Shown here in pieces: positions 9,995 through 25,900 of a stretch of 37,896 nucleotides of DNA. The notes under the pieces were generated by a model, which saw nothing but the letters and a program-made list of their open reading frames with translations, did not search any database and had not been told where the DNA came from. The stretch is from Hyphomonadaceae bacterium (GTDB lineage Bacteria; Pseudomonadota; Alphaproteobacteria; Caulobacterales; Hyphomonadaceae). Position numbers and translations under genes: made by a program. Within the stretch, counting starts at the first letter, position 1, and each line of letters opens with the position of its first letter. The stretch covers positions 1 to 37,896 of the forward strand of contig CANJXY010000013.1 in NCBI GenBank assembly GCA_947478925.1. The letters run 5' to 3'.

Positions 9995-10275
9995 CGCATG
10001 GAGTTCTACCGCTGTGGCGTCGCATAGCGCAATCGCGACTCAGCTGAGGGGCTTGGAATTGGCGGCGCCTACACCCAATTGTAGAGGCACCGGGAACCGA
10101 TCGGCCCATGCGGGATTAGTTCCCGCACAGACGCTGCAGACCAGATACCAACATGATCCGCGAAATTCGAACAGAGTTCCTGCCCCCGGCGATCTAGTCC
10201 CCCCACGTCCCCCCGCCGGGAAGGAAGCGTCGGCGCCGCCTCAACAGGCGGCGCCGATTGCGTTTCAGGAAATGC
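9995..10275. other. Intergenic region between DjlA-like gene and helicase
   Basis: 281 bp. Apart from the helicase terminator hairpin at 10230-10257 and whatever promoter serves the DjlA-like gene, I see no gene. The forward open frame that crosses it is arginine/proline-rich and continues antisense through the helicase, as expected of a shadow. Confidence 0.5.
10230..10257 (-). terminator. Terminator-like hairpin after the RhlE-type helicase
   Basis: A perfect 12-bp stem, TCGGCGCCGCCT, loop CAAC, AGGCGGCGCCGA, about 20 bp past the helicase stop. It lacks a good U-tract, so it may be a weak intrinsic terminator or a 3'-end stabiliser. Confidence 0.65.
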
Positions 10276-16718: not shown

Positions 16719-19346
16719 CTAGTAATTCAGGATGGGACGCAGCCAGCGTTCTGCCGTCGCAAGGTCCCATCCCTTGCGCCTGGCATAGTCCTCGACCTGA
16801 TCCTTCTCGATACGGCCCACGGCAAAGTAGACCGCATCGGGATGCGAGAAGTAGAGCCCTGAAACGCTCGCCGGCGGGTTCATTGCGTAGCTTGAAGTGA
16901 GCTCTATGCCTGCCTTCGCCGTGGCATCCAGCAAATCGAACAGCGTCTTCTTCTCTGTGTGGTCTGGTTGCGAGGGATAGCCTGGCGCCGGACGAATGCC
17001 CTGATACTTCTCCGCGATCAGGTCTTCGCTCGTCAGCCCTTCATCAGGCGCATAGGCCCACAGCTCGCGCCGTACACGTTCATGCAGATATTCCGCGAAC
17101 GCCTCGGCAAAACGATCCGCCAGGGCCTTCACGATGATCGAAGAGTAATCGTCGCCCTTGTCGATGAACTCTTTCGCCTTGGCCATCTCGCCATGGCCCG
17201 CAGTGACGGCAAAGCCGCCGACATAGTCAGCGCCCTGCGGCGCGGCGAAGTCGGCGAGCGCGAGCTGCCCCTTCTCGTTCGTCTTCTCCATCTGCTGGCG
17301 CAGCGTGAAGAAACGCGCACGCTCGGCCTGCCGTGTCTCGTCGGCCCACACGACGACATCGTCGCCATCCGCATTCGCAGGCCAGAAGCCCACGACACCC
17401 TTTGCCTTGATCCACTGCTCGCCAATCATCCGCTGCAGTAGGCCTTGTGTGTCCTTCCACAGCGACTGCGCCGCTTCGCCTACGACATCGTCTTCCAGGA
17501 TCATAGGATAGCGTCCGACCAGATCCCAGCTCGCGAAATACGGCGTCCAGTCAATGTAGCGCGCCAGCGTCGCCAAATCGACTTCGACCTCCCGCACGCC
17601 AATGAAGCTCGGCTTCGGCGCCTTATAGCTCGACCAGTCGATCTTCGGCGCCATCTGCCGCGCCGCTTCGAGCGACACCCGCGCCTTCGCCTGCCCCCCC
17701 GAACGCGAGTCGCGGATCTTCTGGTATTTGTCCTTGATGTCGGCCCAGAACGTGGCGCGGGCGTCATCGCTGATCAACTGGCTCACCACGCCAACCGCAC
17801 GGCTCGCATCCAGCACGTGCACAACTGGCGCGTGCTTGAACATTGGCTCGATCTTGATGGCCGTGTGCGCCGGACTCGTTGTCGCCCCCCCGATCAGCAG
17901 CGGCTTGTGAATACCCAGCCGTTGCATCTCGCTCGCAAAGTAAACCATCTCGTCGAGCGACGGCGTGATCAGGCCCGACAGGCCGATAATGTCTGCGTTC
18001 TCGCGCTGCGCCGCCTCGAGGATCGTCTCCGCCGGCACCATTACGCCGAGGTCGACTACCTTGTAGCCGTTGCACTGCAGGACCACGCCGACAATGTTCT
18101 TGCCGATGTCGTGCACATCGCCCTTCACCGTCGCCATGATAACGACGCCGTTGGACTTATCGGCCATGCCGGTGCGGAGCTTTTCTTCCTCCATGTACGG
18201 CATTAGGTGCGCCACCGCCGCCTTCATCACGCGCGCCGACTTCACCACCTGCGGCAGGAACATCTTGCCGGCGCCAAACAGGTCGCCGACGATGTTCATT
18301 CCGTCCATTAGCGGACCTTCGATGACGTGCAGCGGACGCTCGACCTGTAACCTGGCCTCTTCCGTGTCCTCGACGATGAACTCGGTGATGCCGTTGACCA
18401 GCGCGTGCGCCAGCCTGTCCTTCACTGGCTTCTCGCGCCAGCGCAGGTCCTTCTTCTGCACCTCCCCCTTCTGTCCGCGGAACTTCTCCGCGATCTCGAG
18501 TAGTCGGTCTGTACCATCGGGGCGGCGATTGAGGATCACATCCTCCACCCGCTCGCGCAGCTCCGGATCGATGTTGTCGTAGATGTCGAGCTGCCCCGCA
18601 TTCACGATCGCCATGTCAAACCCGAGCTTGATGGCGTGATACAGGAAGACCGAGTGCATTGCGCGCCGCACTGGCTCATTGCCGCGGAACGAGAATGACA
18701 CGTTTGATAGCCCGCCCGACGTGCGCGCGTAGGGCAAATTCTCCTTGATCATCCGGACGCCCTCGAAGAAATCGACAGCGTAGTTGTTGTGTTCCTCGAT
18801 CCCCGTGGCCACGGCGAAGATGTTGGGATCGAAGATGATGTCTTCCGGCGGAAAGCCGATGCCGACGAGAAGATCATAGGCGCGTTTCGAAATCTCGTAC
18901 TTGCGCTTGGCGGTATCCGCCTGCCCCTGCTCGTCGAACGCCATCACGACAACGGCCGCGCCATAGCTCAACGCCTTGCGCGCCTGGTCAAGGAACTGCT
19001 TCTCGCCTTCCTTCATCGAGATCGAGTTGACGATCGCCTTGCCCTGGACGTTCTTCAACCCCTCCTCGATCACGTCCCACTTTGACGAGTCGACCATGAT
19101 CGGAACCTTGGCGATATCCGGCTCCGCCGCGATCAGGCGCAGAAAGGTACGCATCGCCGCTTTCGAATCCAGCAGGCCCTCGTCCATGTTCACATCGATG
19201 ATCTGTGCGCCGTTCTGCACCTGCTGGCGCGCCACATCGACCGCCTCGGCAAACTTGCCCTCGACGATGAGCTTCTTGAACGCCGCCGATCCGGTGACGT
19301 TCGTGCGCTCGCCGATATTGATGAAGTTGGCCGTGGACTTGGTCAT
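16719..19346 (-). CDS. metH: Methionine synthase, folate/cobalamin/activation half (split MetH)
   Basis: An 875-residue protein corresponding to the last three modules of MetH. The pterin-binding barrel covers about 5-265 ([36 protein letters not shown]). A cap and cobalamin Rossmann domain cover about 300-530, with the axial ligand His412 in DVHDIG. The reactivation (AdoMet-binding) domain covers about 560-875, with [20 protein letters not shown] and [12 protein letters not shown]. It takes the methyl group of 5-methyl-THF to cob(I)alamin and then to homocysteine, and reductively remethylates the inactive cofactor using AdoMet. The homocysteine module is encoded separately at 20440-21507. 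Splitting of metH is seen in several alphaproteobacteria. It is the last gene of the operon, 20 bp after the RidA-like gene. Confidence 0.97.
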
Positions 19347-19366: not shown

Positions 19367-19870
19367 CTAGTGGTTGGCCGGCACGGCGGCCGTGACTTCG
19401 ATCTCGACCAGTACGCCCGGCCGCACAAGGCCCGCGACCTGCACCGTCGAGCGCACAGGACGATTAGGCTGTGCATCGCTGCCATAGTGGCGGCCATAGG
19501 CGCGCATCATGCCATCGAAATCCATGTTCCCCCCAGGCGTTGGCGCCGCGAGATAGACCGTCATCGCCACGACATCGCCCTCGTTGGCGCTGGCTTCTTT
19601 CAGCAAAGCCGCAATCTTCGCGAAAACGTTCTCCGCCTGCGTTTCGGTGTCACCGCCGAAGTCGCCGGACGGCAGCGCATCAGGAATGATCCCGGGCAAG
19701 CGGATGGTCGCGTACCCCGGCGGAATGACGATCGTTTTGGAATAGAACGCCGTCGGCGACGCATACTGCCGATGGATCGCCGCGGGAGTTCCATCCCGCG
19801 TGGTGACATCAGCGATTACACAGCCGCCAAGCGCGACATTCGTTAGACATATTCCGGCAAGACGTTTCAT
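19367..19870 (-). CDS. RidA/YjgF-family protein with lipoprotein signal
   Basis: A 167-residue protein. The first 17 residues (MKRLAGICLTNVALGGC) look like a lipoprotein signal, with basic n-region, hydrophobic core and lipobox LGGC. The remainder, about 40-165, is the RidA fold: AENVFAKIAALLKEASANEG, VVAMTVYLAAPT, and the key arginine in PVRSTVQVAGLVRPGVLVEI, where the family binds the carboxylate of imine substrates. Cytosolic RidA hydrolyses 2-aminoacrylate and related reactive imines from PLP enzymes. An envelope-anchored form would act elsewhere. Its ATG overlaps the TGA of the PNPOx-like gene. If the signal is not functional it would be an ordinary RidA with an N-terminal extension. Confidence 0.85.
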   Translation of the reverse strand: MKRLAGICLTNVALGGCVIADVTTRDGTPAAIHRQYASPTAFYSKTIVIPPGYATIRLPGIIPDALPSGDFGGDTETQAENVFAKIAALLKEASANEGDVVAMTVYLAAPTPGGNMDFDGMMRAYGRHYGSDAQPNRPVRSTVQVAGLVRPGVLVEIEVTAAVPANH

Positions 19871-20430
19871 TCTGCGGCCTTCGTGCGCTGCAGTGCCGGC
19901 AAGCCGTCAATGCTCTGGGCGTTCTTCGTCAGCCGGCTCTCATGCCAGGCATCGAGCTCCATGTGATCGATATAGCGGCGCAACTGATCGCGCTCGCCCT
20001 TGAACTCCATGAAGGGCACAGCCCAGCCGCAACTGTCCTGCACCTTGTCGATGTCCGCAAAAATGATATCGCGCGCGCGTTCATGGCCCGGCGGGAACTT
20101 CGCGATCTCGTCTGCATAGCCAAGATCGTTGAATTGCATCACCTCACCGCGACCATAGAGCCGCATGATGTTCGGCGCGCCGTCATAAGCGCAGAACATG
20201 AAGGTGATCCGGCCGTTCTCCTTCACATGCGCCAGCGTCTCAGCGCCCGACCCACCGAGGTCGGCATAGGCGACCCGGTTCGGCCCGATGATGCGAAAGC
20301 TGTCATAGCCCTTCGGGCTGAGGTTCACGCGACCTATGTCCGCGAGCGGCGCTGTTGCGACGAAGAACATCTTCTGCGCCTGGATGAAGGCGACATGCTT
20401 GTCGTTCAGCGCGTCATAGAACTTTGCCAT
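19867..20430 (-). CDS. Pyridoxamine 5'-phosphate oxidase-like flavoprotein
   Basis: A 187-residue protein of the PNPOx-like split-barrel superfamily. HVAFIQAQKMFFVATAPLAD is the first strand pair, then VNLSPKGYDSFRIIGPNRVA, and ENGRITFMFCAYDGAPNIMR with YGRGEV carries the typical flavin-phosphate contacts. It resembles the general FMN/F420-type pyridoxamine 5'-phosphate oxidase family proteins rather than PdxH itself. The cofactor and substrate are unknown. The gene lies 9 bp after the MetH homocysteine module and overlaps the RidA-like gene by ATGA, so it is co-transcribed with the methionine genes. Confidence 0.88.
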   Translation of the reverse strand: MAKFYDALNDKHVAFIQAQKMFFVATAPLADIGRVNLSPKGYDSFRIIGPNRVAYADLGGSGAETLAHVKENGRITFMFCAYDGAPNIMRLYGRGEVMQFNDLGYADEIAKFPPGHERARDIIFADIDKVQDSCGWAVPFMEFKGERDQLRRYIDHMELDAWHESRLTKNAQSIDGLPALQRTKAAE

Positions 20431-20439
20431 TGCCGTCCC

Positions 20440-21507
20440 CTAAGCCAGTTCGAACGGCTCCAGCCCAGCGAGCCTCAGCGCATGCGGACGCTCCGGCGGC
20501 TGACGCGGGATGATGCCCTTCACGGATTCCGCCACATGCCGAATGTGGTCCGGCGTCGTACCGCAGCAGCCGCCAAGAATGTTGACGAGGCCCTCCTTCG
20601 CCCAGCCCTCGACCGCGTGAGCGGTCTGGTGCGGCTGCTCGTCATACTGGCCCATCTCATTTGGCAGGCCCGCATTCGGATAGGCGGCGACCAGCGTATC
20701 CGCCACCCGCGCCATTTCGGCGATGAACGGGCGCATCAGATCGGCGCCGAGCGCGCAATTGAAGCCTACCGCGAATGGTTTGGCGTGCTTCACCGAATTC
20801 CAGAACGCCTCGGTCGTTTGGCCCGACAGCGTGCGGCCCGAGCGATCTGTGATCGTGCCCGAAATCCAGATCGGCAGATGCTCGAGGCCCTCAGCCTCCA
20901 GATCCATGATCGCCTTGATCGCGGCCTTGGCATTCAGCGTGTCGGTGATGGTCTCGACCAGATAGAGATCGACGCCACCTTCGTTCAGCGCACGGATCTG
21001 ATCGCGATAGGCGCGATAGACCTCGTCGAAATCTACCAGCCGCGCGCCGGGATCGTTCACGTCGGACGACATCGACAGCATCTTGTTCAGCGGCCCGATC
21101 GAGCCGGCAAGAAAGCGTGGCTTCTCCGGCTCTCGCGCATTGAACTCATCGGCCACCTGCCGACCGATCCGCGCGCCTTCAAAGTTGATGTCCCACACCG
21201 CTTGGGCGTCGAGCTTGTAGTCATCCTGCGCAATCATCGTCGCAGAGAAGGTGTTCGTCTCGGAGATGTCGGCGCCCGCCTCGAAATACATCGCGTGCAG
21301 CTGCGCCACGAGGTCCGGCCGCGTCAGGCACAGGATGTCGTTGTTGCCCTTCATCTGACCGGGGTGCGTCTTGAAACGTTCGCCGCGATAATCGGCCTCC
21401 TGCAACCCCATCTTCTGGAACATCACGCCCCATGAGCCATCAAGGATCAGGATGCGCTCTTTCGCGATCTTCTTCAGCTTCGCGATGCGTTCACTGCGGG
21501 CGCTCAT
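20440..21507 (-). CDS. metH: Methionine synthase homocysteine-binding half (split MetH)
   Basis: A 355-residue zinc-dependent homocysteine S-methyltransferase module. The N-terminus [20 protein letters not shown] is the MetH-type start; the zinc ligands Cys251 (GFNCALG) and Cys314/Cys315 ([10 protein letters not shown]) match MetH numbering closely. It binds and activates homocysteine as a thiolate, and the methylcobalamin half is encoded downstream at 16719-19346. The ATG at 21507 overlaps the TGA of the VOC gene and follows a strong AGGAGGG six bases upstream. Upstream codons of the open frame are shadow of the VOC gene. Together the two proteins add up to a full MetH. Confidence 0.96.
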
Positions 21508-21959
21508 TGCTGCCCTCCTTGGCGAGGCGGTGGAATCGAGACTGCGCCACTGGCGTGCAGCGGAAAGAACGGATTGTGCGCCACCTCCCAGAGGTGGCCT
21601 TCGGGATCGGCAAAGTGTCCGACATAACCGCCCCACGACGTCTTGTGCGGCGCCTTCAGGCTGCTGCCGCCTGCGGCAAGCACCCGCGCGAACGCGGTAT
21701 CGACCGTTGCAGGATCAGCAACATTCCACGCCAGCGTCTGCCTCCGGAAGCCGTTGCCCTCGCCCGGCACGCCCGCGTCTTCGGCCAGCATGTCGTTCGG
21801 AAAAAGAGCGAGCACAACGCCATCCATATCGTAGAAATGGATGGTCTCCTGCGAGGCGCGCGAGCGCTTCAGCCCCATCGCTTCGTAGAATGCAGCAGCG
21901 CGTGCCAGGTCTTCGACGCCTAAAGTCACAATTGCGATGCGGATCGGAGGACTGCTCAT
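21504..21959 (-). CDS. VOC (glyoxalase/bleomycin-resistance fold) protein
   Basis: A 151-residue vicinal-oxygen-chelate protein, two beta-alpha-beta-beta-beta repeats. Repeat one: IAIVTLGVEDLARAAAFYEA and IHFYDMDGVVLALFPND; repeat two: TLAWNVADPATVDTAFARVL and GGYVGHFADPEGHLWEVAHN. The last stretch carries the typical E in LWEV and the His of HF(A)DPEGH that ligate the metal in enzymes of this fold. The reaction is not inferable. It overlaps metF (ATGA) before it and the MetH module after it (ATGA), so it is expressed with the methionine genes. Start codon chosen at 21959 by that overlap. Confidence 0.88.
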   Translation of the reverse strand: MSSPPIRIAIVTLGVEDLARAAAFYEAMGLKRSRASQETIHFYDMDGVVLALFPNDMLAEDAGVPGEGNGFRRQTLAWNVADPATVDTAFARVLAAGGSSLKAPHKTSWGGYVGHFADPEGHLWEVAHNPFFPLHASGAVSIPPPRQGGQQ

Positions 21960-22822
21960 AAGGCGTGACGCTCCGGCTTGATGCCCAAAAGTCTGCACGT
22001 GGACAGCGACAGGCCAGCGCGGTTCATCGTGTAGAAATGGAAATGGTCGACGCCCTGCTCTGCCAGGCGCTGGCAGAGCTCAGCTGCGACATGCGCTGTC
22101 ACCAGATCGCGTGTCTCCGCATCATTCTCGAGGCCTTCGTATAGTGCCGCAATTCGCGCCGGAATCGCCGTGCCGCACAACGCCGCCATCCGCTTCAAAC
22201 CGTTAAAGTTGGACTGCAGCATGATGCCTGGCACGATCGGCTGGTGAATACCCGCCGCTCGCGCCTGATCGAGGAATTTGAAGTACACGTCGGGATAGAA
22301 GAAGAACTGCGTGATCGCCCGTGTCGCACCCGCATCGAACTTGCGCTTCAGGTTTTCGATCTCTGCCGTGAGTGAAGATGCATCCGGATGCACTTCCGGA
22401 TAGCAACCCACTGAGATATCGAAGTCGGCAATCTTCCGAGCGCCTGCGATCAGGTCGTTGGCATAGGCATACCCGCCCGGATGCGGCTCATAGCGCGTGC
22501 CGATGCCGGCCGTCGGATCGCCGCGCAGCGCCACGACGCGCTTCACGCCGGCGGCCCAGTAGTCGCGCAGCACCTGGTCGATATCGTCCTTGGTCGCCGC
22601 GACACAGGTAATGTGTCCTGCGGGATTCAGGGATGTCTCTTCCGCCATCTTCTTGACGATGCCGTGCGTGCGTTCGCGCGTGGAACCGCCTGCGCCATAT
22701 GTCACCGACACATAGGTGGGGTTCAGCGGCTCGAGCCGCTTCACCGAATCCCACAGCTTCGCTTCCATCTCCGGGGTCTTCGGGGGAAAGAACTCGAAGG
22801 AGACTGATGGCGTTCGGCTCAT
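21956..22822 (-). CDS. metF: Methylenetetrahydrofolate reductase
   Basis: A 288-residue flavoprotein that reduces 5,10-methylene-THF to 5-methyl-THF, the methyl donor for MetH. The conserved N-terminal SVSFEFFPPKTPEMEAKLWD, the barrel signature TYVSVTYGAGGSTRERT, the segment RVVALRGDP, and DFDISVGCYPEVHPDASSLT with FITQFFFY-like AITQFFFYPDVYFKFLDQAR are all present. The length is the usual size of bacterial MetF. The start at 22822 makes an ATGA overlap with the regulator gene; the frame extends upstream without conserved sequence. The position before both MetH modules fits a methyl-transfer pathway from folate to homocysteine. Confidence 0.97.
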   Translation of the reverse strand: MSRTPSVSFEFFPPKTPEMEAKLWDSVKRLEPLNPTYVSVTYGAGGSTRERTHGIVKKMAEETSLNPAGHITCVAATKDDIDQVLRDYWAAGVKRVVALRGDPTAGIGTRYEPHPGGYAYANDLIAGARKIADFDISVGCYPEVHPDASSLTAEIENLKRKFDAGATRAITQFFFYPDVYFKFLDQARAAGIHQPIVPGIMLQSNFNGLKRMAALCGTAIPARIAALYEGLENDAETRDLVTAHVAAELCQRLAEQGVDHFHFYTMNRAGLSLSTCRLLGIKPERHAL

Positions 22823-23811
22823 GCTGCAGTCCTCTTGCCCGTCCCTTCCAGCGCGGCCTTCTTGCAATCAGCCGACCAGACCATCACGGATATGCCTTTG
22901 TCGCCGTCGGGTGCGGCAAACGTCTTCGCGGAGCGCACAGTGAGCCCGGCTCGGTCGGCCCAGCGCGCCATGTCATGCTCGCTGACACCCAGATGGCGAT
23001 GCGCATGGTCGCTGCGAAGGTGCTCCTGCGTGTGCGGCGCGAATTCGACGACGACGAGGCGCCCGCCCGGTTTTAGGACGCGTGCCGCCTCGTTGAGCGC
23101 ACGGCCCGGATCATCAAGGAAGTGCAGAACCTGGTGGATGATCACCAGATTTGCGGAATTGTCAGGATAGGGCGACGCCGTGGCGTCCCCGTGTCGGACC
23201 GAGGCATTGCTGATCCCGGCTTCCGCCAGCTTGGATCGCGCAACCGTCAGCATCTGGTGCGACAGGTCGATACCCTCGACACGCCGGGCCTTGTCCGCGA
23301 ACAGCGCCAACATCCGCGCGGTGCCGGTCCCGAAGTCCACCACCACCTCAAACGGCCCCGCCCCCGCCGCAGCGAGGACCGCCTGCTCAATGTCGTGATC
23401 AGAGTAGTGCATGGCGCGCAGGCGATCCCAGTCATCCGCCACCCGCGAGAAATAAGCGCCAGCGGCTGAAGCGCGCTCTCCCTTCACATCACGAAGCCGG
23501 TCCAGGTCACGCCGAATTTCAGGATCCGCCGCATCCACAACTGCGTTCAGCGAATCAACCAACGCCCGCGCCTGCCCTTCGGACGGCAGGCGATAGAACA
23601 CCCACGCCCCTTCCGGCAGCCGTTCAACCAGACCGGCCCCGGTCAGGAATTTCAGATGCCGGGAAAGCCTTGGCTGGCTCTGATTCAGGACCTGTGCAAG
23701 CTCGCCGACTGAGAGCTCGCCATGCGCCAGGAGGCTCAGAATACGCGCCCGCGTGATCTCGCCTGCGGCCCGCAGCTGAGTCACAAGATGATTGAGGGTT
23801 ACGGAAGCCAT
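22819..23811 (-). CDS. ArsR-type regulator fused to SAM-dependent methyltransferase domain
   Basis: A 330-residue fusion. Residues about 5-80 form an ArsR-type winged helix (EITRARILSLLAHGELSVGE, then RLSRHLKFLTGAGLVERLPE); the metal-binding cysteine pair of classical ArsR is absent. Residues about 120-320 form a class I methyltransferase with motif I DFGTGT (159-164), acidic end of strand 2 in EGIDLSHQML (Asp182) and motif near HQVLHFLDDPGRALNEAARV. The obvious hypothesis is that it senses SAM or SAH and controls the met operon; ArsR-family regulators of the SAM cycle (SahR, SamR) have been described in Proteobacteria. It is the first gene, with a 30-bp inverted repeat over its start codon, so autoregulation is likely. 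Confidence 0.92.
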   Translation of the reverse strand: MASVTLNHLVTQLRAAGEITRARILSLLAHGELSVGELAQVLNQSQPRLSRHLKFLTGAGLVERLPEGAWVFYRLPSEGQARALVDSLNAVVDAADPEIRRDLDRLRDVKGERASAAGAYFSRVADDWDRLRAMHYSDHDIEQAVLAAAGAGPFEVVVDFGTGTARMLALFADKARRVEGIDLSHQMLTVARSKLAEAGISNASVRHGDATASPYPDNSANLVIIHQVLHFLDDPGRALNEAARVLKPGGRLVVVEFAPHTQEHLRSDHAHRHLGVSEHDMARWADRAGLTVRSAKTFAAPDGDKGISVMVWSADCKKAALEGTGKRTAA

Positions 23812-23838
23812 ATAATGATATAAACATATCCTTATATG
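23809..23838. promoter_or_regulatory. 30-bp imperfect palindrome at the met operon start (candidate operator)
   Basis: Arms of 13 bp, CATATAAtGATAT and ATATCcTTATATG, with a 4-bp centre AAAC; 12 of 13 arm positions pair. It overlaps the ATG (CAT at 23809-23811 on the plus strand) of the ArsR-methyltransferase gene and the -10 region. A binding regulator would block both transcription initiation and start-codon access. The obvious binder is the product of the gene itself. Confidence 0.75.
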
Positions 23839-23845
23839 AACTCAA
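23817..23845 (-). promoter_or_regulatory. Promoter of the met operon, probably leaderless
   Basis: On the minus strand TTGAGT (23845-23840), a 17-nt spacer, and TATATC (23822-23817). The ATG at 23811 lies five bases after the -10, so the transcript would start at or beside the start codon. No Shine-Dalgarno sequence precedes the ATG, in agreement with a leaderless mRNA. Confidence 0.6.
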
Positions 23846-23910: not shown

Positions 23911-23930
23911 AAGTCAACGGGCGTTGACTT
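23911..23930. promoter_or_regulatory. Perfect 20-bp palindrome upstream of mlaA
   Basis: AAGTCAACG, centre GG, CGTTGACTT. It lies 49-68 bp before the mlaA start and contains TTGACT, which could be a -35 box, so the palindrome would overlap a promoter. It is near-central in the 167-bp divergent region with the met operon. Either an operator or a hairpin is possible. Confidence 0.5.
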
Positions 23931-25835: not shown

Positions 25836-25865
25836 CCCCGCGAGCCACCTCGGGAATAAAGTCTG

Positions 25866-25900
25866 AACGGCGCGATCGTGAACGATCGCGCCGTTTCTGT
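25866..25900 (+). terminator. Strong terminator after the small secreted protein
   Basis: A 13-bp perfect stem, AACGGCGCGATCG, loop TGAA, CGATCGCGCCGTT, followed by TCTGT. It begins 31 bp after the stop codon at 25835. Confidence 0.85.

Follow-up and report, generated by a model that had tools for sequence, protein, structure and literature searches.

The AT-rich inverted repeat in front of the ArsR-methyltransferase gene is, with a probability of about 0.9, the operator of a SahR-type repressor, and this estimate covers the whole explanation, including release of the repressor by S-adenosylhomocysteine (SAH), co-induction of ahcY and metK, and a leaderless sahR message. The repeat lies in a 37,896-nt stretch of Hyphomonadaceae DNA, which was analysed at its full length (the window, Table 1). 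An earlier note on this DNA had proposed an autoregulatory operator that overlaps the promoter of the ArsR-methyltransferase gene and heads a metF-metH operon, and the sequence comparisons are in line with this proposal. The range it gave, 23809-23845, contains the box, the −35 and −10 elements and the ATG. The AT-rich inverted repeat does exist, although the 30-bp register in which it had been described is wrong.

Table 1. Coordinates of the sahR promoter elements and of the genes of the sahR operon in the window
Feature	Position	Strand	Remarks
Predicted SahR-type operator, 22-mer CATATAAGGATATGTTTATATC	23817..23838	-	20-bp core 23818-23837; box upstream of sahR in 105/109 homologous loci
30-bp inverted repeat, 12/13 pairs	23809..23838	.	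Wrong register; pairing retained in nearest relatives only
−35-like TTGAGT	23840..23845	-	TTG here in 61/64 distinct short-spacing promoters vs 8/37 others
−10 region TTATATC	23817..23823	-	Within the operator's 3′ half; TTATAT here in 38/64 distinct short-spacing promoters
sahR ATG	23809..23811	-	20-mer followed by ATG at 3-9 nt in 67/105 boxed loci; no Shine-Dalgarno (SD) sequence
sahR, 330 aa	22819..23811	-	ArsR HTH, residues 11-79; class I methyltransferase domain, ~121-264
metF	21956..22822	-	Start overlaps sahR stop (ATGA)
Glyoxalase/VOC-fold protein	21504..21959	-	Start overlaps metF stop (ATGA)
metH part 1, homocysteine-binding module	20440..21636	-	
PNPOx-like flavin-binding protein	19867..20430	-	Between the metH parts
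Rid-family (L-PSP) protein	19367..19870	-	Between the metH parts
metH part 2	16719..19346	-	Pterin, B12 and activation modules

The regulator encoded at this locus is a fusion of an N-terminal ArsR HTH (HTH_5, 1.8e-14) and a class I methyltransferase domain (Methyltransf_11, 4.4e-25). The cysteine metal site that characterises the HTH domain of metal-sensing ArsR/SmtB proteins was not found in it; its single cysteine lies near the C-terminus, thus the product does not resemble a metal sensor. Motif I of the methyltransferase domain reads DFGTGTA, and residue 165 is alanine, whereas almost all aligned relatives have glycine at this position. The affinity for SAH could therefore differ, and this substitution could weaken ligand binding. 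The nearest named relatives belong to Hyphomonadaceae. Close homologues of the protein were found in Hyphomonas, Hirschia, Henriciella and Phenylobacterium, that is, in lineages to which SahR has been assigned at the family or order level (PMC4239095).

Regulators of this kind are already known. SahR recognises a 20-bp palindrome, its core regulon consists of sahR, ahcY, metH, metH2, metF and metK, and its carriers include Caulobacterales and Hyphomonadaceae (Leyn et al. 2014, PMC4239095). Deletion of sahR raised the activity of the sahR promoter in Ensifer aridi (PMC8877191), and the same paper cites a demonstration of SAH as the SahR effector for Desulfovibrio. The locus in the window shares with the published SahR (PMC4239095) the ArsR-family regulator with a methyltransferase-like domain, the 20-bp palindrome, the regulator's own operon with metF and metH, and the further targets ahcY and metK; neither the regulon nor the motif length differs. 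A leaderless promoter with the operator placed between the −35 element and the ATG is not mentioned in the accessible parts of the published descriptions. As far as its sequence tells, the sahR locus is a member of the published SahR system and not new in kind.

The repeat of the earlier note was found again, with 12 of 13 pairs between the arms 23809-23821 and 23826-23838, a 4-nt loop and its centre at 23823.5. The probability of any 12/13 palindrome with a loop of 0-8 nt in 60 nt of local composition is ~0.0007, hence the inverted repeat is not noise. Such palindromes are less rare in the window as a whole, where nine overlapping matches were found at a few places against a mean of 0.6 under an order-1 Markov model. 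The strong G+C-rich hairpins at 25865-25896 and 10229-10258, which are followed by T-rich sequence and probably act as intrinsic terminators, are among these matches. For comparison, sahR homologues were drawn from 40 relatives and from named genomes, and the promoters of the resulting 109 loci were compared on the box. When about 100 homologous promoters were aligned in this way, the conserved palindrome turned out to be 20-22 bp long and centred at 23827.5, and the typical box across loci, found in 105 of the 109, reads CATATAA(A/G)GATATGTTTATAT(C/G). At 101 distinct sites, mean pairing was 84% in the 22-mer register versus 58% in the 30-bp register. The high pairing of the longer repeat (12/13) was seen in only four of these loci, the window and its three nearest congeners, so the 30-bp unit is not what is conserved at homologous promoters. 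The boxes before ahcY and metK in this genome agreed with this, as they form 6/13 and 4/13 pairs in the 30-bp register but 10/11 and 9/11 as 22-mers. An operator of 30 bp with its centre at 23823.5, extending over the start codon, would be favoured by the pairing in the window and its closest congeners, but is highly improbable in view of these values. Since the conserved register is 23817-23838, the outer arm (23809-23821) consists mostly of non-conserved leader bases and the ATG. Of the proposal that the operator covers both the −10 element and the start codon only the first half stands: the 22-mer overlaps the −10, but it ends 5 nt before the ATG and thus leaves the start codon outside the operator.

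The 20-mer form of the operator, ATATAAGGATATGTTTATAT, or a variant of it occurs before sahR, ahcY and metK. Searching the 3.94-Mb genome with the 20-mer pattern (at most three mismatches) gave exactly three sites, located before sahR-metF-metH, before ahcY, which encodes a 466-aa adenosylhomocysteinase, and before metK, while the reversed control pattern had no match at the same threshold. These three sites cover the entire core SahR regulon (sahR, metF, metH, ahcY and metK). The pattern matched mostly at two or three places in each congener, again with no control matches, and the congener sites retrieved included, as judged by tblastn, 10 before metK and 14 before ahcY, i.e. the same gene set as in the genome itself, besides two looser AT-rich matches near neither gene. 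A variant of the metK box in congeners is ATATAAAGCTTTCTTTATAT. The ahcY box appears to lie just before a promoter-like stretch, TTTGCC/TTGCCC ... TGCTATAG, which implies an operator geometry different from that at sahR. The idea of a switch for the methionine operon was therefore right in that the box heads the metF-metH operon, but the presence of the box before ahcY and metK means that more than one operon is involved. The regulon also bears on the identity of the effector. SamR of Xanthomonadales, a distant SahR homologue that likewise controls methionine genes, has an identical domain make-up, and a SamR-like regulator responding to SAM instead of SAH could be imagined here. However, the SamR regulon contains no SAM-cycle genes except metK, hence no ahcY, and its motif is a 24-bp palindrome (PMC4239095), whereas the box described here is 20-22 bp long and ahcY has a site, which makes this reading very unlikely. 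Considering its length, symmetry and regulon, the box is best assigned to the SahR motif.

The promoter of sahR could be laid out on the minus strand as TTGAGT (23845-23840), 17 nt, TATATC (23822-23817), 5 nt and ATG (23811-23809), with no SD sequence, just as the earlier note had read it. If the A of the ATG is taken as +1, TTATAT (23823-23818) occupies −12 to −7, as would be expected for transcription beginning at this A. The standard sigma-70 scan gave no match at the sahR promoter, because TTGAGT/TATATC score too few matches. The arrangement is shared widely: an in-frame ATG follows the 20-mer at a distance of 3-9 nt in 67 of the 105 boxed loci, and at exactly 6 nt in 45. None of these 67 short-spacing loci has an SD-like tetramer in the −18 to −4 region, although this absence is partly forced by the operator occupying that space. 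TTG stands 7-10 nt before the box in 61/64 distinct short-spacing promoters versus 8/37 others (Fisher P 8e-15, uncorrected for relatedness; the loci are related to each other and the thinning to distinct promoters was crude). With the promoters anchored on the ATG, conservation outside the box is highest in columns −35 and −34, with 1.29 bits for the T at −35.

The same SahR operator could also serve a promoter that is not leaderless, in which the −10 would be TATAAG, located in the box's 5′ half, and the message would carry a leader of ~20 nt without an SD sequence. TATAA(A/G) is indeed a good match to a −10, and leaders lacking SD sequences are common in alphaproteobacteria (PMC4117421). 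Nevertheless, no conserved −35 lies 16-18 nt upstream of TATAAG, where the columns −60 to −38 reach at most 0.21 bits against the value at −35. Moreover, the short-spacing class combines a nearly fixed distance from box to ATG with the lack of an SD sequence, whereas in the leadered sahR loci (mostly Mesorhizobium and relatives) the ATG comes ~20-22 nt after the box and 26 of 32 have an SD-like tetramer. For these reasons the leadered alternative seems rather unlikely, and the conserved geometry suggests that the A of the ATG is probably the first nucleotide of the sahR transcript, which lends comparative support to the leaderless transcript proposed earlier. A later start at a GTG (codon 10) was also considered and is disfavoured by the conserved distance between ATG and box and by homology that in most relatives begins before codon 10. 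Several loci from Hyphomonadaceae and other alphaproteobacteria (L050, L058, L062, L066, L069 and L076) have a good box and no ATG close after it.

At ahcY and metK of the same genomes, the start codon is ~45-105 nt away from the box and is mostly preceded by AGGAG- or GGAG-type sites. It is therefore fairly likely that −35, operator/−10 and ATG form one fused unit of nearly fixed spacing at the sahR promoters of Hyphomonadaceae and Caulobacteraceae, and that the leaderless message of the sahR operon stands beside SD-leadered ahcY and metK messages, so that the mode of initiation differs within one regulon. Leaderless messages are familiar from another alphaproteobacterium: the accessible part of PMC4117421 describes 375 leaderless genes in Caulobacter crescentus, whose mRNAs start at the ATG and are translated as well as leadered ones, but it treats a general phenomenon, and sahR is not named there. 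Searches of the literature on sahR in Caulobacter, or on operators placed over leaderless starts, returned nothing relevant. The conserved leaderless layout of the sahR promoter, of which no description was found in the literature examined, is thus probably a modest addition to the known SahR system.

Downstream of the promoter, metF follows sahR directly in 76 of 80 named loci. Homology of metH part 1 begins near residue 46-51, thus its true start is probably near 21490. The metH gene of the window is split in two parts by the PNPOx-like and Rid-family genes (19367-20430), and a glyoxalase-fold gene lies between metF and metH. An RNA switch upstream of the operon was rejected, as the window has no match to any Rfam element, a SAM/SAH riboswitch included. 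A second inverted repeat, AAGTCAACGCCCGTTGACTT, is located at 23911-23930 in the sahR-mlaA intergenic region and is possibly an operator or a promoter element for the divergent mlaA. In several congeners, repeats of the TCAAC-N4-GTTGA type recur ~110-160 bp ahead of sahR.

In the original SahR work, that of Novichkov and co-workers from 2014, SahR reportedly acts as a repressor that is lifted by SAH. A corresponding mechanism can be envisaged for the window. A dimer of the ArsR-methyltransferase protein would bind the 20-22 bp palindrome at 23817-23838; as the operator takes up the stretch of sahR's own promoter that separates the −35 from the end of the −10, the bound dimer would exclude RNA polymerase. 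By analogy with the characterised SahR, accumulated SAH would bind to the methyltransferase-like domain and cause the repressor to leave the DNA. Release would induce the sahR-metF-metH operon, ahcY and metK together, at three promoters at once, and this joint induction may clear SAH and regenerate methionine and SAM. The sahR transcript would be leaderless from the A of the ATG, while those of ahcY and metK would have ordinary leaders with SD sites.

These results assign a previously unannotated genome to the SahR regulon, of which it has a complete and minimal set of three sites, and correct the register of the operator. If the mixed initiation modes are real, the level of the repressor itself could respond to the state of the ribosomes in a different way. 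The occurrence of a leaderless sahR beside leadered ahcY and metK in many genera would offer a simple natural comparison for leaderless translation in an autoregulated operon.
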